A stretch of 64,000 nucleotides of DNA, taken from the NCBI RefSeq assembly GCF_000248055.1, contig NZ_BAFC01000006.1:1-64000 (forward strand). Direction: 5' to 3'. This DNA is from Gordonia sputi NBRC 100414 (GTDB lineage: Bacteria > Actinomycetota > Actinomycetes > Mycobacteriales > Mycobacteriaceae). The notes under the pieces were generated by a model, which saw only the letters and a program-made list of their open reading frames with translations, was not told the origin of the DNA and did not search any database. The translations under genes and the position numbers were made by a program. This document shows, one piece after another, positions 42,492 through 54,092 of the stretch (position 1 is the first letter of the stretch; each line of letters starts with the position of its first letter).

Positions 42492-44660
42492 GTGAGTTCC
42501 ACGCTTTCCGACGCCGGGATCGCCGCCGGCACCCCGAACGAGGACGCCGCCACCGGCAACACCTCGGGGTACCGCCTCGACCTCGACGGTCTGCGGGGTA
42601 TCGCGATCGCGCTCGTCGCGATCTTCCATGTGTGGTTCGGCCGGGTGTCCGGCGGCGTCGACGTGTTCCTCACCCTGTCCGGCTACTTCTTCATCGCCTC
42701 ATTGCTCAAGCACGTCATCGCGACCAACCCGCCGAACGTGTCGTGGCGACGGGCGGTGAATCCGTGGCCCCGCTTCTGGCGGCTGGTACGTCGCCTCTTG
42801 CCCGCGCTGCTCGTCGTACTGGCTGTCATCACCGCCCTGATCGCACTGATCATGCCCAGAACCCGTTGGGGCCCTTTGGGTTCGGAAATCCAGGCGAGTG
42901 CGCTCTATTACCAGAACTGGCACCTCGCGTTCGACTCACAGGACTACGCCGCCGCGGATTCGGCGAACAGTCCGATGCAGCATCTGTGGTCGATGTCGAT
43001 GCAGGGCCAGTTCTTCGTGCTCACGCTCGTGTGCATGCTCGCGCTCGGCGGCGTCCTGAAGTTGCTCGCGCGTCGCACCTCGGTGTTCGGCGAGGCCCGC
43101 GTCATTCGTGGCATCGTCGGCGTCGCATTGCTGGCCGTCGCAGTCGTCTCGTTCGCCTGGGCGGTGTACCGCCACGGCGTCAATCAGCCGTTCAACTACT
43201 ACGACACGGTCGCGAGGCTGTGGGAGCCGCTCGCAGGCGGGCTGTTGGCCGTCGCCATCCCTCAACGACTCACGCAGGTACATCGCAACCGACTGGCGGT
43301 GCCCGGTTGGCTGCGCGACGTCGTCGGTGTTGGGGCCCTCGCGCTCATCGTGAGCTGCGGCTGGTGGATCAGCGGGGTGTCGGAGTATCCGGGCGTCTGG
43401 ACGTGGATTCCCGTCGGCGCAACGCTCGCGCTGATCTGGACGGGTTCACCCGCCGCCCGCGACGCGGCGTCGAACGACGCAGGACTGATCAGCCGAGCGC
43501 TCGCGCACCCGCGTCTGGTGTGGCTCGGTTCGGTGGCCTACGCGCTCTACCTGTGGCATTGGCCGCTGCTCATCTTCTACCTCGCGTGGCGCTTCCAGGA
43601 CGACGTGAGCTGGTACGAGGGCACTGCGATTCTCGCCGTATCGCTGCTGCTCGCGTGGCTGACGACCCGGTACATCGAGGCTCCGCTGCGATCCGGACGG
43701 AACACCGGTTTCGGCCGCTCGTATCGTGTCGCGCTCACCGCCCTGCTCGTAATCGCGACGATCATCGCAGGCACGACGGCCGTCGTCTGGCAGCGGAACG
43801 CAGCGAACGCGACGGTCAACACCGACAACCTCGACCCCCGGCTCTACCCCGGTGCGCGCGCGTACCTCGACGGCGCGCCGACGCCCCGCGTCGACCCGCA
43901 GCCCAGCCCGGAGGTCGTCGACAAGGACTGGCCGATCACCTCGTACGACTCGATGATCAGCGGCTGGAAGGATCCGGCGATCAAGGTCGGCGTCTACGGC
44001 GATCCCGCCGCCACACGCACCGTCGCGCTGGTCGGCGGATCGCACGCGGAACAGTGGATCACCGCGCTCGACGCCGTCGGCAAGCAGCGCGGATTCCGGG
44101 TCACCACCTACCTGAAGGTCGGCTGCGCGTTGACCACCTCCCACGTATTCACCTGGTTCGGGCAGAAGTACTACCAGTGCAACGACTGGTCACGACGCGT
44201 GATGGGCCGGTTGGCCGTCGACAAACCCGACGTCGTGTTCACCAACAGCACACGGCCCGTCGAGAACGGTCCCGGCGACACCGTTCCCAAGGACTACACC
44301 GACATCTTCACGCAGTTCCGTGACCGGGGACAGCGGGTCGTCGCGGTGCGCGACAACCCCTGGGCGCACGGCAAACTCAAGCCCCCGGAATGCCTCGCAC
44401 AGGGCAAGAAACCGCAGGTCTGCGGCGTCGACCGGGATGTGGCGATGGCGGAGGCAGACCCCGCGCAGGCCATCGCATCGCAGTATCCGAACATGTCATT
44501 TCTCGACTACACCGACGCGATGTGCAGCCCGACCTACTGCCCGGCTGTCGTCGGCAACATCCTGGTCTGGCACGACTACCACCACCTGTCGGCGACGTTC
44601 GTGCGCAGCCTCATCCCCGCGGTCGACGCCGATCTGGGCCGTGCGCTGCGGTGGTGGTGA
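42492..44660 (+). CDS. OafA/YrhL-type membrane acyltransferase with SGNH domain
   Basis: This is a 722-residue protein. The N-terminal half is an acyltransferase-3 membrane domain: YRLDLDGLRGIAIALVAIFH, then GGVDVFLTLSGYFFIASLL and RLLPALLVVL. About ten helices are followed by an extracellular domain (from about 450) with VALVGGSHAEQWITALDAVG (SGNH serine block) and a late IVWHDYHHLS histidine block. Such enzymes add acetyl groups to cell-envelope sugars. GTG 42492 is the start; no clear ribosome site is visible. A second acyltransferase follows 220 nt later on the same strand. Confidence 0.88.
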   Translation: MSSTLSDAGIAAGTPNEDAATGNTSGYRLDLDGLRGIAIALVAIFHVWFGRVSGGVDVFLTLSGYFFIASLLKHVIATNPPNVSWRRAVNPWPRFWRLVRRLLPALLVVLAVITALIALIMPRTRWGPLGSEIQASALYYQNWHLAFDSQDYAAADSANSPMQHLWSMSMQGQFFVLTLVCMLALGGVLKLLARRTSVFGEARVIRGIVGVALLAVAVVSFAWAVYRHGVNQPFNYYDTVARLWEPLAGGLLAVAIPQRLTQVHRNRLAVPGWLRDVVGVGALALIVSCGWWISGVSEYPGVWTWIPVGATLALIWTGSPAARDAASNDAGLISRALAHPRLVWLGSVAYALYLWHWPLLIFYLAWRFQDDVSWYEGTAILAVSLLLAWLTTRYIEAPLRSGRNTGFGRSYRVALTALLVIATIIAGTTAVVWQRNAANATVNTDNLDPRLYPGARAYLDGAPTPRVDPQPSPEVVDKDWPITSYDSMISGWKDPAIKVGVYGDPAATRTVALVGGSHAEQWITALDAVGKQRGFRVTTYLKVGCALTTSHVFTWFGQKYYQCNDWSRRVMGRLAVDKPDVVFTNSTRPVENGPGDTVPKDYTDIFTQFRDRGQRVVAVRDNPWAHGKLKPPECLAQGKKPQVCGVDRDVAMAEADPAQAIASQYPNMSFLDYTDAMCSPTYCPAVVGNILVWHDYHHLSATFVRSLIPAVDADLGRALRWW

Positions 44661-44880
44661 GTCTGTATAGCGGTGAGACTCCCTGACAGCCACGTCTCAG
44701 GGGGCGTCCAGACTGCACTGATAAGCTCATAGTCGATAACGGGAGGATCACGGCCCATCAACGCGATGGTGCCGCAACGTTGACGCAAGGGGCGGGCATC
44801 GAGGCTCGGGTACCCGGTCGACGTGACGAGATCCGGCCACGAACACCGTCCACGAGAACTGTCAGGGGCTGAGTCTGAGT

Positions 44881-46122
44881 ATGTCGACGACGTTGGTTTC
44901 GCGTGCAAACGAGTCGACGGCCGACGCCGACGCCTCGATTACGCGACCGACTCGCCGCCCCTATCTACACCAGGTCGACCTGATCCGAACGGTGACATTC
45001 TCACTGGTCATCTTCGTGCACTGCCTCACGCAGACCACCAACGAGTTCACCAGCATGCCGGTCAACACCACGTCGCTGCTGCTGCACTTCACGCGCAACA
45101 CGTTCTTCGCCCTCACCGGCTTTGTGTTGATGTACCAGAACTTCGACAAGCAAGACTTCAGTGCGCCGACGTTCTGGAAGCGTCGAATCAAGCTGGTGAT
45201 CTATCCGTACGTGATCTGGTCGGCCGTCTACTGGGTGGTCAACATGTGGCTGGCGGGCAAGCTCACCGAGATCCCGACGAGCCTGACCAACTTCTTCTAC
45301 CAGCTCAGTTGGGGCCTCTCCGGGTTCCAGATGTACTTCCTGTTCGTGATGCTGCAGGTCTACCTGATCTTCCCGCTGGTGGTCTGGCTGCTGCGCGCAA
45401 CCACCGGGCATCACCTGGCGCTACTGGGTGTCAGCCTGGTGCTGCAGTTCGCCGTCGCCGCGACCATCACGCATTGGAATCCGCCCGCGACCGTCGCGGC
45501 CCGCTGGTGGCACAACTACGCCACGTTCGTCCCCTATCAGTTCTTCATCCTGTACGGCGCTGTCGCCGCGGTGCACCGCAAGCAGATCGGCGCATGGCTG
45601 CAGGGCAAGGGCTGGTGGTTGTTCGGTGCGCTGCTCGTGACCGCGGCGATCGCCGTCGGCTCGTACATCGGGGGCGTCTGGTTCGCGGGCAAACCGGTGC
45701 ACGACAACAACTCCGCGTTCTACCCCGCCTTGGTTCCGTTCCTGGTCGTCGCGATGACCTGCCTATACGCGGTTGCCCTGCACTGGGCCGAGAACCGACG
45801 TGAGTTCACCCCGCGGTTCGCGCGGGCCGTGAAGTACGCGTCCAATCGCTCGTTCCCGGTGTTCCTCGTCCATGTGCTGGTGCTGACGATGATCATGTAC
45901 CCGCAGCGCAACGGCACATCGTGGGTGCGTGAAGCCATGGGCCAGCCGTGGTCGACCATCGTCGTCTACCTGGCCACATTGGCCGGGTCGCTACTGCTCG
46001 TCGAGATTCTGCGCCGACTCCCCGGCGCGCTGTACCTGACCGGCCGCCCGCGGATTCCGTTCCGTAGCCCGCGCGCCGACTCCGCGCCGAGTGCACCTGC
46101 CGTCGTAGGGGCGTCGTCGTAG
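44881..46122 (+). CDS. Membrane acyltransferase (acyltransferase-3 family)
   Basis: This is a 413-residue integral membrane protein with about ten helices. It starts with a basic cytosolic end then YLHQVDLIRTVTFSLVIFVH, where the His at the end of helix 1 aligns with the catalytic-type His of acyltransferase-3. HFTRNTFFALTGFVLMYQNF, FWKRRIKLVIYPYVIWSAVY and RSFPVFLVHVLVLTMIMYP follow. It resembles sugar O-acyltransferases of glycolipids or polysaccharides. No SGNH domain is present. The last codons lie in a 14-bp tandem repeat. The preceding 220 nt hold no gene that I can see. Confidence 0.85.
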   Translation: MSTTLVSRANESTADADASITRPTRRPYLHQVDLIRTVTFSLVIFVHCLTQTTNEFTSMPVNTTSLLLHFTRNTFFALTGFVLMYQNFDKQDFSAPTFWKRRIKLVIYPYVIWSAVYWVVNMWLAGKLTEIPTSLTNFFYQLSWGLSGFQMYFLFVMLQVYLIFPLVVWLLRATTGHHLALLGVSLVLQFAVAATITHWNPPATVAARWWHNYATFVPYQFFILYGAVAAVHRKQIGAWLQGKGWWLFGALLVTAAIAVGSYIGGVWFAGKPVHDNNSAFYPALVPFLVVAMTCLYAVALHWAENRREFTPRFARAVKYASNRSFPVFLVHVLVLTMIMYPQRNGTSWVREAMGQPWSTIVVYLATLAGSLLLVEILRRLPGALYLTGRPRIPFRSPRADSAPSAPAVVGASS

Positions 46123-48445: not shown

Positions 48446-49705
48446 TCAGCACGGATGCACCGAGTTGGCATAGTCGAGCCACTTCGGTAGGCTGCTGACG
48501 AATGCGCTCCTGGTATCCGGTGAACCGGCGGCACGCCAGTCGACGACATCTTTGATCTCGATCTCGTACTTGCGCCACTCGAACCAGTTGATCATCTTGA
48601 GCATCGGGTAACGCGACGGTATGTCGGCGGCGAAGACCTGCCGCCACCACGTCGACTTCACCGCGAGCTCTGAGGCGCCCTGAGCCGCACGCGCCGGGGT
48701 GTAGATCGCGGCCGTCTCGACAATCGCCACTGGCTTCTGGTGCTGCGTGCCGTAGATCTGATAAAAGTTCGGCACCGTGAGGTCGTGGCCGGCAGTCCCG
48801 TTATAGCGACCCTCGAGCATCGCCGTGAACTTTCCGGGTTCGCTCACATCGTTGTTGCCCCACGGACGGCGATTTCCCCAGTGATACAACGAAATCCCCA
48901 CCCAATCGACCGCGTCGTCGCCCGGATAGTACGGCGCATATGAGTCGTCGGATGCTGTGAGCTTTCCGTCGTGATTGGTGTCGGCCAACCGGTAGTTGTC
49001 TGTTCCTCTGCGCGCCACGTACTTTCCGCCTTCGAACGGATACCCGCCGCCGTAGTTCGGCGCCCACATCATCGCCGTCCCCGGCGCTTTCCGATGGACC
49101 ATCGCAGCCACTCGGCGGAATGTCTCGACGTAGGCTCGGGGTTGCTGGCCCCATGCGTACCAGGAACCGTTCATCTCGTGTGCGAATCGCAGGATAACCG
49201 GTACGCCCGAATCGTTCAGCTTGCGCAGGTCGTCACCCAGACGGCCGACGACACCCTCCGTGATCGTGGCCAATCCAGCGTGCGGCTCCAAAGTCAGCAC
49301 CATGATGCCGCGTTCATCACGCACCTGATTGGCAGCCGCGACTGTGTGTGACCACGTCTGATTGTTGTACGGGATGTCGGAGAACTGCACTGCGACCGCG
49401 GGAGCGTGCCCAAGGTTGTCGTGATGTTCTCGCAGGCTCTCGGACTGCCAGTCGAGGTTGACGCCGAACAGGATCCCTGAGTTCGGAACGGCCCGATGGA
49501 AGTCGGTGACCGCACAGGGCGGCGTGGGCTCGGGCAAGTAGTGCTGGAACAGTGCGCCCGCGGTCCCGACACCGATCAGCATCGCGATGACCGGGATCAG
49601 CGCCGACGGCCGACGGCGCCTGCGCCGCGACCACCGCTCCGCGAATCCTGGTTCCGCGATGTCATCCGGACTCGTTGTCTTGCTATCGATTGGCGGGCTG
49701 CTCAT
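48446..49705 (-). CDS. GH26-like glycoside hydrolase with EF-hand loop, membrane anchored
   Basis: The protein has about 419 residues. A cytosolic basic end and one helix (LIPVIAMLIGVGTAGALFQH) anchor it. The catalytic domain has the acid/base in RFAHEMNGSWYAWG, WAPNYGGGYP, and a nucleophile candidate in VAIVETAAIY, the GH26 pattern. Between them lies DTNHDGKLTASD, a full 12-residue EF-hand loop next to SYAPYYPGDD, so it probably binds calcium. GH26 enzymes cut beta-mannans or mixed beta-glucans. ATG 49705 is the start. It is divergent from a second GH26 gene and near the BcsA-like synthase. Confidence 0.82.
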   Translation of the reverse strand: MSSPPIDSKTTSPDDIAEPGFAERWSRRRRRRPSALIPVIAMLIGVGTAGALFQHYLPEPTPPCAVTDFHRAVPNSGILFGVNLDWQSESLREHHDNLGHAPAVAVQFSDIPYNNQTWSHTVAAANQVRDERGIMVLTLEPHAGLATITEGVVGRLGDDLRKLNDSGVPVILRFAHEMNGSWYAWGQQPRAYVETFRRVAAMVHRKAPGTAMMWAPNYGGGYPFEGGKYVARRGTDNYRLADTNHDGKLTASDDSYAPYYPGDDAVDWVGISLYHWGNRRPWGNNDVSEPGKFTAMLEGRYNGTAGHDLTVPNFYQIYGTQHQKPVAIVETAAIYTPARAAQGASELAVKSTWWRQVFAADIPSRYPMLKMINWFEWRKYEIEIKDVVDWRAAGSPDTRSAFVSSLPKWLDYANSVHPC

Positions 49706-49757
49706 GTCATGCCACACTTTCCTCACCAGTGCTACCGAGCGAAACGGAACTGTTGTG

Positions 49758-50744
49758 GGACCACGAATACAGACAGACAATGTCGACGTCGCGCGTATCG
49801 CCATGCCGCTCGTTGCACTGATCCTGGTGCTCACGCTTGGCGCGTGCAGCGACGGTGGCGACTCCGCCGGTCCGCACCATATTCGTTGGGGCGCTTATCT
49901 TCCCGACCTGAAGGGGAGTGACGTCGACTCCGATGCCGGAGTAGTCGGGGTCACTACCCTCGCTGATCGCCCGTTGGATCTGATCCTCACCTTCAGCGGA
50001 CTCCGCGAACCGGTACCACACGCGGATCTGACCAGAATCGCCGAGACCGGCGCTGTTCCGATCGTGAGTATCGAACCGTGGAACCCATCCGGCGGTGTCA
50101 ACCAGCCGGACTATCGGCTGTCGCGCATCGCCGACGGCGCCTTCGATAACGACCTCCGACGGTGGGCGAACGGCCTGAAGGAATTCGGCCGGCCGGTGAT
50201 CGTGCGATTCGCCCACGAAATGAACGGCGATTGGTACCCGTGGGGGGTGCACGTGAACGGCAACACTCCGCAGTCCTACATCGACGCCTGGCGTCATGTC
50301 CGATCGATCCTGAATTCGATTGATCCGCATAATATCTCGATGGTTTGGGCGCCAATGGCGGCGATTTCGGGCATCCCTGGATTCGACGCGGCCTACCCCG
50401 GCGACAACGAGGTCGACTACCTGGGGATCGACGGCTACAACTGGGGCAACGACGGCCAACATGGCTGGGCCTCACCTGGATTCATCTTCTCGAACGCATT
50501 CGCCGGCCTCCGTCGACTCGGCGACAAGCCGATTCTCGTCACCGAGGTCGCATCCGCCGACGACCCGGATCCGACACGGAAAGCCACGTGGATCCATGAT
50601 TTCGTCTCGCTCGTCAGCCGTGAGGCAGGCGTCGACGGGTTCGTGTGGTTCCAGGCGAACAAGGAGCGAGACTGGCGCTTCAATTCGAACCCTCAGAGCG
50701 AGAACGCTTTCCGGTCCGCATTAGACGCAGTCCCCGCGACCTAG
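49758..50744 (+). CDS. GH26-like glycoside hydrolase lipoprotein
   Basis: The protein has about 328 residues with a lipoprotein signal (MPLVALILVLTLGAC). The hydrolase domain has RFAHEMNGDWYPWGVHVNGN (acid/base Glu), SMVWAPMAAISGIPG, VDYLGIDGYNWGNDGQHGW and a nucleophile in LVTEVASAD, all as in GH26. It lacks the EF-hand of its neighbour. GTG 49758 or ATG 49803 may start it. The two GH26 genes are head to head, with 52 nt between starts. Its last 65 nt overlap the convergent STAS gene. Confidence 0.82.
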   Translation, partial: GPRIQTDNVDVARIAMPLVALILVLTLGACSDGGDSAGPHHIRWGAYLPDLKGSDVDSDAGVVGVTTLADRPLDLILTFSGLREPVPHADLTRIAETGAVPIVSIEPWNPSGGVNQPDYRLSRIADGAFDNDLRRWANGLKEFGRPVIVRFAHEMNGDWYPWGVHVNGNTPQSYIDAWRHVRSILNSIDPHNISMVWAPMAAISGIPGFDAAYPGDNEVDYLGIDGYNWGNDGQHGWASPGFIFSNAFAGLRRLGDKPILVTEVASADDPDPTRKATWIHDFVSLVSREAGVDGFVWFQANKERDWRFNSNPQSENAFRSALDAVPAT

Positions 50745-51630
50745 TGTCGGGCACGCGTCGATCACAGATCAGCGCCGCGCTTCTATCCGGATAGAGCACA
50801 AGAATTTTGCCCAACTCGAGCGCGTCAAAGGCATCGGCTACAGCGGGTGAGTGCCCGAAGATCCGTAGGTCGGCGCGGAGTCTCCGCGCCGACCGAACCG
50901 CATGCATGAGATCGGCCATGCCCGACGGCGTCACGGAAGAGACACCACCAACGTCCACCAGCACCAGCTTCGCACCCGAGGCGCACAACCGGCCCACTTG
51001 GTGGTGGACACTCGAGGAGACACCCCACAGGCCACTCACGGCGACATCGGCGATACCCGACGCGCCCCCGTCAACAGCGCCGACGGCCTCGCGATCATCA
51101 ACGGCGGCAGGGGAATCCGAGTGAACTGAGCGATCCACGTCGAGCCGTGTCACCACCTCTGCTGGCGCAGGGACCGTTTCATCCCGACCGCTGCTGGGCC
51201 ACACCGACGCATCCGGCGTCGCGCGAGCGACCGGAGGCAGACGCCTCCGGCGCGTGAACCGCGTTGTACGCGTGACGGTTTCGACCCGTCCGTGATCGCG
51301 GTCAATCGCTGCGGTGCGGTCGGTGTAGAGAACCATCACCCTGCCGAGATCAAGTGCGTCCAGCGCATCGAGCAATGCCACGGATTTTCCGTGGACGCGC
51401 AGATCGGCGCGTCGCGACCTTGCCCACCGCACGGCGTGCATCAGCTCAGCCATGCCGGACGGCGTGACACCGCTGAGGTCGCCGACGTCGACGAGTACGG
51501 GACGTGCACCGGCCGCACAGGCACCGGCGACGTCGTCACACAGACGTGATGTCACATCGAGCCGGCCGGACACCCGGACGTCGGCAGTCTGGTCGTCGAA
51601 CTCTGCGAATGTTTCGTGGGCCAGTGACAT
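50680..51630 (-). CDS. Double STAS-domain protein
   Basis: This 316-residue cytosolic protein has two STAS domains. Domain 1 (about 5-100) has ADVRVSGRLDVTS, PVLVDVGDLSGVTPSGMAEL and VALLDALDALDLGRVMVLY. Domain 2 (about 190-290) has DVAVSGLWGV, LVLVDVGGVSSVTPSGMADL and AVADAFDALELGKILVLYPD. The near repetition indicates internal duplication, with an Arg- and Pro-rich linker between. STAS domains act as anti-sigma antagonists or signal inputs, with a target Ser/Thr at the loop seen here as VTPSG. It precedes no kinase, but is downstream of the BcsA-like gene by 37 nt on one strand, suggesting co-transcription and control of polysaccharide synthesis. ATG 51630 has GGAGAAG. Confidence 0.82.
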   Translation of the reverse strand: MSLAHETFAEFDDQTADVRVSGRLDVTSRLCDDVAGACAAGARPVLVDVGDLSGVTPSGMAELMHAVRWARSRRADLRVHGKSVALLDALDALDLGRVMVLYTDRTAAIDRDHGRVETVTRTTRFTRRRRLPPVARATPDASVWPSSGRDETVPAPAEVVTRLDVDRSVHSDSPAAVDDREAVGAVDGGASGIADVAVSGLWGVSSSVHHQVGRLCASGAKLVLVDVGGVSSVTPSGMADLMHAVRSARRLRADLRIFGHSPAVADAFDALELGKILVLYPDRSAALICDRRVPDTRSRGLRLMRTGKRSRSEGSN

Positions 51631-51667
51631 GTTCTTCTCCAGGGTTTGGCGGGCTGGGAGTCGTAGA

Positions 51668-53602
51668 TCAGGTGGAACGCTGTGGCGCGGGGCTTTCGGC
51701 CAACACAGAACCCTCGATGTAGTCGTCGACCGATCCGATGGGTGTCGGACGATAGTGGGCGGCACGGACGACGGACGAAAGCAAGAGCAGATCCAGGCCG
51801 ACCCACCCGAGCGACAGGAAGGTCGGGAAGGTCTCGGCGTCGCCGTGAAGCCAGCGAAGGATGCCCACTCCGGACGATGCGACTAGTGCCACCATCGCGA
51901 CCAGCTGCGGGATGATCGGCCGGTAGTCGACCCGCGCGTCGATCTGCTCCTTGGAGGTCACCGAGAAGGAGATGTGCCGTCGGAAGAAGACCGCCGCGGC
52001 AGCCGAGAGGGTGGCCGATATCCAGACCGGGAACAGCGCGAACGATATCTGCTGCCCACGCCACAGCCCCCCGGACCGGTACCCGGCCACTTGGAACAGC
52101 AACTGGCAACAGACGAAGAAGGGAATGAACCGTGCGAAGAAGTCCAGTGGGTAAGCGTTCATGGGGAACACACCGAGCGTGAAGTAGATGATCGGCGCGG
52201 CGATGTAGACCACCGCTGCGAACCCGTTGAGATACGAGGTCATGGTGGCCAGGTACATCAGCCGCTGCGCAAACGTCAGCCCGGATTGGAAGAGCGGGTT
52301 GTTGGCGAAAAATACCTGCATCGACCCGGTGGCCCATCGCTGACGCTGGCCGAGCATTGTCGCGAGGTCGTCGGGTGCAAGCCCCTCCACCAAGACCTCG
52401 TGGTGGTAGACGCTCTCCCAGCCCATGGCGTGCAGATGCATCGCGGTCGCCATGTCCTCGGTGACCGTGGCGGTGTTGATGGGCTGGATCGCCAAGGCCT
52501 GGTCGATCCGGGACACTTCAACCGTGTCCATCGTCTTGTGCAGTTGTTCGACGATCTCCTCGGGTAGCCACGCGTGTGAATCGAGGATGTCGTGGATACC
52601 GGCACGCAATTCGAAGGCGACCTCGCCCACCGGCGCGCCACGCCGCAAACTGCGTCGCGCGCCACGCACCACATCGAGCGCATCCTCGAGTGGGACGCGC
52701 AGTCCCGATCCATGCCCGACTTCGTTGATCAGGCCCTCAAGACGCGCCCATTCGTCCCGAATAGCCCTTCTGACCTGCGGATCAGCACCGCGCGAGTACG
52801 TGCGCAAGCCGAGTGCCATCAGGGCCTCGCGCCGCAGGACAGCGTTCGAGCCGCAGAAGAATGCAGCACCCCAGCCGTCCTTACCCTGCTGGATGGGGCC
52901 ATAGAACAGTTCGGCCTGACTACCCAGCGGATCGGAATCAGGGACATTCCAGAAGTACTGCGGGGTCTGCACGAAGGCCACCGCATCGTCGTCAAAGTAG
53001 CCGAGGACGGCGTCGAGAAACTGCGGCTTGGGGACCTGGTCGGCGTCGAGAATCGCCACGAACTCCGCGTCGGTCAGAAACAGCGCGTTGTTGATGTTGC
53101 CGGCCTTGGCGTGTCGCTGACGCCCGTTCCACTCCTCACCGCGAGTGAGGTATCCGACACCCAGCCGAGCCGCCGCGATCCGGAACTCCTCGCGATCGCC
53201 GTCGTCAAGGATCCAGGTGTTGTGGGGGTAGGAGATCTCGCGCGCGCCGATCGCGGTTCGTACCACCAGCTCGAGCGGCTCGTTATATGTGGTGATGAAT
53301 ACGTCGACCGTGAGACCTGGTCGCGCCACCGGCGGTAAAGGTCGCTCGCGCGCATTCCACATCATAAATGCGAAAAGAATGGATTCGGAAAGCGAATATG
53401 TTTCCGCAATAACCAATGGAATAGCAATCCACCAGGCGGACCATGCGATGGTGTCGCTCCATCGCCAGAAAATGTAAGCGCAGCCGAATGAAACAACAAG
53501 AACAGCAATGATTCTGACAGCAAACAACCGCGCTGGCCCCACAGTCCCCACCTCCGAGTTGGCATCGATCCCACAACATCGACCCGCCCCGTCGCAGCTC
53601 AC
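51668..53602 (-). CDS. BcsA-like family 2 glycosyltransferase (processive polysaccharide synthase)
   Basis: This 644-residue membrane enzyme starts with two helices (AVRIIAVLVVSFGCAYIFWR, WWIAIPLVIAETYSLSESIL). The GT-A domain has the motifs WILDDGD, VAILDADQVP (DxD), TVTEDMATAMHLHAMGWES and QRQRWATGSMQ, the D,D,D,QxxRW set of cellulose synthase-like enzymes. About six more helices follow. No PilZ domain is visible, so control by c-di-GMP as in BcsA is unlikely. The polymer is unknown; nearby GH26 genes suggest a beta-mannan or beta-glucan. The 5' end is unusually AT-rich. GTG 53602 is the start. Confidence 0.85.
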   Translation of the reverse strand: MSCDGAGRCCGIDANSEVGTVGPARLFAVRIIAVLVVSFGCAYIFWRWSDTIAWSAWWIAIPLVIAETYSLSESILFAFMMWNARERPLPPVARPGLTVDVFITTYNEPLELVVRTAIGAREISYPHNTWILDDGDREEFRIAAARLGVGYLTRGEEWNGRQRHAKAGNINNALFLTDAEFVAILDADQVPKPQFLDAVLGYFDDDAVAFVQTPQYFWNVPDSDPLGSQAELFYGPIQQGKDGWGAAFFCGSNAVLRREALMALGLRTYSRGADPQVRRAIRDEWARLEGLINEVGHGSGLRVPLEDALDVVRGARRSLRRGAPVGEVAFELRAGIHDILDSHAWLPEEIVEQLHKTMDTVEVSRIDQALAIQPINTATVTEDMATAMHLHAMGWESVYHHEVLVEGLAPDDLATMLGQRQRWATGSMQVFFANNPLFQSGLTFAQRLMYLATMTSYLNGFAAVVYIAAPIIYFTLGVFPMNAYPLDFFARFIPFFVCCQLLFQVAGYRSGGLWRGQQISFALFPVWISATLSAAAAVFFRRHISFSVTSKEQIDARVDYRPIIPQLVAMVALVASSGVGILRWLHGDAETFPTFLSLGWVGLDLLLLSSVVRAAHYRPTPIGSVDDYIEGSVLAESPAPQRST

Positions 53603-54092
53603 CTACTATTCTTGCCCAGTCGACCGACGCCCGCAACCCGCTGCAGTCGTTGTAGTCCATCTGATGACATATCGAATTTATCGCGCTAAAACCAACTTCG
53701 TGCGCAATACGAAAAAGATTAGTGACCCCAATTTTCGGGGCATAATTTTGGATTTCTACTGAGATGTACGACGCTTTATCATTCATTCGTGACACACGTC
53801 ACCTCTTTTGCAATGGATGCGGCGCCCGCACACGGCAAGTCGCCTGGTTCATCAGAACGGCAGCGACCGAGCAGCGGGAGAGGTTCACGTCACCCGGAAC
53901 TGACTGGATAGTCAGTTACTCATGAGTATCATTCCCTTATCGCAACGCCTACAGTCCACACCAGGTAAGGGCAACCTTGGCAGCGCGAGGTACCCGTGAA
54001 GAATTACGGTTACCTGTAGTAGACGTCCGACCCCGCGCACGTCAGCCCTGCGCGACTAGGTCGATGATCAACATGAGAGGGGCCGGGACGCC
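53603..54092. other. Intergenic region between BcsA-like gene and etfD, AT-rich part and operator
   Basis: These 490 nt hold no convincing gene. From about 53640 to 53800 the sequence is markedly AT-rich for this genome (many TTTT, AATT runs), and the low-GC character extends into the synthase 5' coding part from about 53340. A 20-bp TetR-like palindrome lies at 53898-53917. The remainder holds the etfD leader. Confidence 0.65.
53898..53917. promoter_or_regulatory. TetR-like palindromic operator upstream of etfD
   Basis: AACTGACT and AGTCAGTT are perfect 8-bp inverted arms separated by GGAT. The sequence style (TGACT...AGTCA) is that of TetR-family operators of lipid-metabolism genes. A second 10-bp palindrome ACTCATGAGT adjoins at 53918-53927. 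Confidence 0.65.

Follow-up and report, generated by a model that had tools for sequence, protein, structure and literature searches.

A BcsA-Like Synthase Without PilZ and Its Adjoining STAS Protein in Gordonia sputi: A Possible Partner Switch Acting on a Helical Insert

Introduction

How is a cellulose-type synthase controlled when it lacks PilZ? The question is raised by a compact locus of Gordonia sputi NBRC 100414, which occupies positions 48,446 to 53,602 of a 64,000-nucleotide stretch of DNA (contig NZ_BAFC01000006.1, positions 1 to 64,000; hereafter the window) and which comprises a BcsA-like processive GT2 synthase without PilZ, a double-STAS protein and two GH26 hydrolases, GH26A and GH26B. 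The control of cellulose-type synthases is known nearly entirely through cyclic di-guanosine monophosphate (c-di-GMP) and PilZ, whereas the widespread actinobacterial lineage described here, devoid of PilZ, travels with STAS, and half of its tree adds a full kinase/phosphatase switch. Our tentative answer, held with somewhat less than even confidence, is an anti-sigma-type partner switch acting directly on an enzyme: the STAS protein would dock on a helical insert of the synthase and gate synthesis post-translationally, replacing PilZ and c-di-GMP, with the Gordonia clade hard-wired on.

If true, this would give STAS proteins of polysaccharide loci a first direct enzymatic target. The insert is a concrete candidate for what unphosphorylated STAS binds in such systems, a point that work on SypA of Vibrio fischeri did not settle (PMC4517449), and the window's clade, from which kinase, phosphatase and phosphoserine are naturally missing, is a ready-made locked-on control. 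Among the papers searched, none describes such a system, and none brings GH26 together with cellulose synthase and actinobacterial exopolysaccharide, or STAS with BcsA; three that touch on both partner switches and cellulose synthase appear, from title and abstract, to be off topic.

The Synthase and Its Insert

The synthase gene (51668..53602, minus strand) encodes 644 amino acids, and its assignment to BcsA-like GT2 enzymes without PilZ, made in a preliminary description of the locus, is borne out from several sides. Pfam recognizes Cellulose_synt (2.3e-20) together with GT2, the NCBIfam model CelA (TIGR03030) covers both halves of the protein at 351 bits, under its cut-off of 699.1, and the motifs DDG, DAD, TED and QRQRW are present, as is FSVTSK of the gating loop (FxVTxK). 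The AlphaFold2 model of the Gordonia aichiensis orthologue superposes on Escherichia coli BcsA with a Z of 32.9 and 2.4 Å over 488 residues. Pfam found PilZ neither in the synthase nor anywhere in the window's genome, which holds four GGDEF proteins; this supports the earlier view of an exopolysaccharide locus free of c-di-GMP control.

Alignment with E. coli BcsA falls into two pieces, residues 23-265 and 375-613, and the catalytic domain contains an insert of about 120 residues that the preliminary description had missed and that has no counterpart in BcsA or in insert-less relatives. In the window it spans 120 amino acids (52469..52828, minus strand) between FFCGSNAVLRR and TVTED. Between FFCGSNAxLRR and TVTED the window's group has 119-172 residues; elsewhere among BcsA-like synthases the number is mostly 12, apart from a small group with 44-47. 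The insert of the G. aichiensis orthologue is predicted to be helical, with a predicted local distance difference test score (pLDDT) of about 80-94, and the window's own insert, modelled alone with AlphaFold2, gives a four-helix bundle at a mean pLDDT of 80.

Searches for relatives of the insert returned little. Pfam gave weak scattered matches and no relative, the insert profile drew chance helical matches alone from the PDB sequences, and fold comparison reached a best Z of 10.6, to generic bundles and under the level that is meaningful for helical bundles. Outside the Actinomycetes there was a single weak match (25 bits, G679). The insert presumably sits in the same slot as the class-specific region of plant CESA, though no plant CESA chain in the PDB was matched by the insert profile or listed by the insert fold. 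For that region a role in inter-subunit contacts has been proposed (PMC8306620).

Association of the Insert with STAS

Synthases bearing the insert form two clades, clade I, to which the window's belongs, and its sister, clade II; other BcsA-like synthases lack it. In a sample of 393 Actinomycetes genomes spread across the class, the insert profile matched 24, among which 23 loci were intact, and these were compared with 40 insert-less BcsA-like loci found with the CelA model in the same genomes. A STAS gene lay within 5 kb in all 23 insert loci (at a distance within about 130 nucleotides in every one) and in none of the 40 controls (Fisher p 1e-17, a value that, like the one given next, ignores the relatedness of loci). 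GH26 genes were found within 8 kb in 14 of the 23 and in four of the controls (p 3e-5). A kinase stood near the synthase in 22 of the insert loci and SpoIIE in 21, again against none of 40. Counting every insert locus, 62 of 64 have STAS. In L038 the GT2 and STAS genes share one reading frame.

Clade I, at roughly 60-95% identity, extends through Gordonia, Paenarthrobacter/Arthrobacter, Oerskovia, Cellulosimicrobium, Sediminihabitans, Schumannella, Lacisediminihabitans and Granulicoccus, the nearest match being Gordonia jacobaea, with a synthase 95% identical. The genes of this clade always follow one another as synthase, STAS, GH26A, and some loci add a divergent GH26B. All 26 window-type loci have synthase and STAS, and all 26 have GH26A (L044 is cut inside that gene by a contig end); the cluster arrangement exceeds chance. 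The preliminary description had staked its reading on GH26 genes accompanying the synthase in related genomes, and they do so in every window-type locus and in 48 of the 64 loci of the insert type. Secreted hydrolases often serve scavenging, and one might take the locus for a degradative or wall-remodelling one with a coincidental neighbourhood; the gene order conserved across several families, together with the frequency of GH26 near insert-type synthases relative to controls, makes this highly improbable.

In a synthase tree computed with the insert removed, the insert-bearing proteins all fall in one clade, the one exceptional row being L062, a broken gene. The insert and its link to STAS thus arose once and have since been kept, although the lineages diverged deeply, genes were reordered and the system came to occupy many genera. 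Such long retention is good evidence for functional coupling, not for many independent origins.

Within Gordonia the insert-type synthase is a patchy, accessory trait, present in 12 of 59 genomes surveyed (three of the window type and nine of the full-switch type). Two insert-type synthases look broken, L062, on a plasmid of Pseudarthrobacter NamE5, and L126 (G370), and so the system is sometimes lost.

The Sister Clade and the Loss of the Switch

Clade II synthases are about 45-50% identical to the window's. Next to them Pfam identifies a single STAS protein, its phosphosite canonical, as well as a kinase (RsbW-like, HATPase_c_2) and a SpoIIE phosphatase that carries receiver, GAF or membrane sensor parts; in the class-wide sample, 22 of 22 clade II loci have the STAS gene, 22 of 22 the kinase and 21 of 22 the phosphatase. 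Most often the genes run phosphatase, synthase, STAS, kinase, and many loci add a fusion of GH26A with an OpgC acyltransferase (confirmed by Pfam in L058). Spacing is tight, adjacent genes overlapping or being separated by a few nucleotides, and the synthase mostly stands between phosphatase and STAS. Over 33 clade II loci, STAS distances track insert distances beyond the synthase core (partial r 0.41) better than those of the kinase (0.19) or phosphatase (0.27), which is a weak hint.

One further locus (L084:8703-10762) has a STAS gene and, after it, a single protein in which an RsbW-like kinase and a SpoIIE phosphatase flank a receiver-like stretch, as in SypE of V. fischeri.

The partner-switch control proposed in the preliminary description is thus complete in the operons of the sister clade and incomplete in the window. 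The STAS phosphosite is D-S-S/T-G in all clade II loci, while in all clade I loci the acceptor is Ala or Pro (GASG, TPSG, SPSG, TASG, APSG, LPSG, RPSG). Both domains of the window's protein (domain 1, 51295..51618, and domain 2, 50761..51078, both minus strand) read VTPSG in place of DSSG and have no phosphorylatable serine. Clade I loci contain no kinase or phosphatase; the window locus has no kinase within 8 kb, and its genome has no SpoIIE phosphatase above the Pfam cut-off. A few HATPase_c_2 proteins are encoded elsewhere in that genome, so that a distant kinase is possible; these could also be anti-sigma factors.

Because DSSG is the general STAS motif, the difference is better read as a loss in clade I than as a gain in clade II: clade I would have lost kinase, phosphatase and phosphoserine and yet kept STAS, a homologue of which adjoins every window-type synthase. 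If STAS persists in the absence of its kinase, it must be serving some other partner, and a STAS protein that merely titrated a kinase or an anti-sigma factor should have vanished too. The simplest reading, as far as sequence can suggest it, is that unphosphorylated STAS acts directly on the synthase, the insert being its probable point of contact, and that STAS is locked in this form in the window's clade.

Two other explanations bear on these same observations. STAS, with the clade II kinase and phosphatase, might form an ordinary anti-sigma switch whose target, a distant sigma factor, governs transcription of the locus; the insert would then be unrelated and serve, for example, in oligomerization. 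This is the canonical role of RsbV/RsbW/RsbU modules, from which the clade II STAS and kinase do not depart in sequence, and the distant HATPase_c_2 proteins of the window's genome could supply the anti-sigma factor. A sigma factor was considered as the hidden partner and rejected, for no conserved sigma gene was found near clade II loci (of 96 neighbour proteins, two have Sigma70 domains). Moreover, the window-type STAS lacks the residue that is normally phosphorylated, and the window's genome has no SpoIIE above the cut-off, yet STAS stands beside every window-type synthase, and the insert-less synthases of the same class are never accompanied by STAS. We therefore consider a transcriptional switch of this kind rather unlikely. 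Alternatively, the insert might be a multimerization or scaffold element resembling the plant class-specific region, with STAS as a structural subunit that takes no part in signalling. An all-helical insert, variable in both length and sequence, would suit such a role, as would the unswitchable STAS of clade I; the complete, switchable kinase/phosphatase pair in the clade II operon would be hard to explain if the subunit were purely structural there, and we regard a scaffold as decidedly unlikely.

The GH26 Enzymes and the Probable Product

GH26B (49803..50744, plus strand) is a probable lipoprotein (lipobox LTLGAC) of the lichenase type. It aligns over the whole domain with CtLic26A (EglH), the GH26 lichenase of Clostridium thermocellum, at 1.4e-35 with a single sequence and 1.5e-65 with a profile, as against 9.5e-15 for the best mannanase, and its two catalytic glutamates, E133 and E242 in alignment numbering, are invariant among its relatives. 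On these comparisons GH26B belongs to the lichenase branch of GH26 and not to the mannanases, two groups that are separate in published trees (PMC6556568). Unlike CtLic26A, it lies beside a synthase and is not cellulosomal; its activity is predicted. GH26A (48446..49705, minus strand) is a membrane-anchored or secreted GH26 hydrolase in which both candidate catalytic glutamates are present (HEMNG, IVET).

The preliminary description had left the choice between a mannan and a mixed-linkage glucan. Since GH26B matches the lichenase so much better than any mannanase, a beta-glucan is favoured, and the product is probably mixed-linkage or cellulose-like; a mannan is unlikely. The broader proposal, of a product other than a glucan (a mannan, for instance) and of GH26 enzymes that are mannanases, draws on the fact that most characterized GH26 enzymes are mannanases and on GH26A, which matches mannanases and lichenase about equally. 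It must contend with the placement of GH26B by 50 orders of magnitude, with a synthase nearest to cellulose synthases and with the clade II fusion of GH26A to an OpgC-type acyltransferase, a family named for glucan succinylation, and it seems to us very doubtful.

A few kilobases from the cluster, at 42492-46122 of the window, lie genes for two AT3 acyltransferases, one of them a SucT-like AT3-SGNH protein. With the OpgC fusion of clade II (e.g., L058), they hint that the polymer may be acylated.

A Possible Mechanism in the Context of Known Systems

We would give about even chances to the following model as a whole, a beta-glucan locus in which STAS docks on the insert and permits synthase activity, clade I being locked active. 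The membrane synthase would polymerize uridine diphosphate glucose and extrude the chain as BcsA does, with no BcsB in the cluster and no c-di-GMP control. The four-helix insert would be the regulatory docking site for the adjoining STAS protein, and we infer that this contact, made by the unphosphorylated form, permits activity rather than inhibiting it. In the sister systems the RsbW-like kinase would phosphorylate STAS (off) and the SpoIIE phosphatase would reverse this (on); in the window's clade, with kinase, phosphatase and phosphoserine gone, STAS would be a constant subunit locked in the active state. Outside the cell, GH26B and GH26A would trim or release the polymer.

Several points weigh against this model. 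Two insert-bearing paralogues, L055 and L059, have no STAS gene within 8 kb, though the genome of L055 holds a second, STAS-linked copy (L060). As the insert arose once, its association with STAS counts as one evolutionary event. The STAS protein of clade I could be inhibitory or structural. GH26A, at 2.2e-7 against CtLic26A and 3.5e-7 against mannanases, is too divergent to place. Finally, the synthase sequence does not fix the linkage, given that cellulose and mixed-linkage synthases share motifs and that the BcsA-like RiGT2 can make mixed-linkage glucan (PMC10374906).

Of the systems to which the locus can be compared, BcsA of E. coli and Rhodobacter sphaeroides shares the GT2 fold, the catalytic motifs, the membrane architecture and the gating-loop FxVTxK; the window's synthase differs from it in having no PilZ, no BcsB in the cluster, a 120-residue helical insert, STAS in the operon and GH26 rather than GH8. 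HmpU/V/W of Nostoc punctiforme controls motility as well as hormogonium polysaccharide, and we know of no dedicated synthase insert there. The likeness is that a partner switch is tied to polysaccharide output (review PMC8256260). RiGT2, the (1,3;1,4)-beta-glucan synthase of Romboutsia ilealis, is also a Gram-positive, BcsA-like enzyme, with reported activity independent of c-di-GMP (PMC10374906), but it keeps a PilZ domain and needs it for activity, whereas the window's synthase has none. SypA/SypE of V. fischeri also places STAS in an exopolysaccharide locus, and the RsbW-type kinase and SpoIIE phosphatase of the sister loci extend the resemblance. The non-phosphorylatable SypA-S56A is active in V. 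fischeri, a parallel to the clade I STAS (PMC4517449). Unlike the large multi-gene syp locus, the operons described here hold essentially one synthase each, with the insert, and the window's STAS has no phosphosite.

Layout of the Locus and Additional Observations

The four genes of the preliminary description were all recovered by Pfam and by their coordinates, with some starts refined. Pfam detects two STAS domains in the open reading frame 50680-51765 (minus strand) and GH26 at 3e-11 in 48446-49834 (minus strand) and 3.5e-12 in 49587-50744 (plus strand). The STAS gene (50680..51630, minus strand) begins at the ATG at 51630, behind a Shine-Dalgarno sequence (ggagaa, 51640-51635), which confirms its placement 37 nucleotides after the synthase stop. 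The two secreted GH26-like genes are indeed head to head, with likely ATG starts at 49705 (minus strand) for GH26A and 49803 (plus strand) for GH26B; the 248-nucleotide overlap of the listed frames arose because the longest open reading frames had been taken, and the genes are separated by a divergent intergenic region of 97 nucleotides (49706..49802). GH26B overlaps the 3' end of the STAS gene by 65 nucleotides. No RNA families or tRNAs were found in the window, and promoter and terminator scans gave results near chance. In the AT-rich region upstream of the synthase, an inverted repeat, CCCC-GAAAATT-GGGG (53726-53740), is a candidate operator.

A second BcsA-like synthase of the window's genome (L081, G000:C36:16000-34000) has no insert; an acyltransferase accompanies it, and about 2.6 kb off lies a third GH26 gene, which is of the lichenase type. 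L082, L091 and L092 show the same pairing with GH26, so that the pairing extends beyond the insert clade. In other actinobacteria, the insert-less BcsA-like synthases of L072-L080 adjoin GH81-type and HlyD-type genes (Pfam-checked in L080 and L074), and these loci perhaps represent another beta-glucan pathway.

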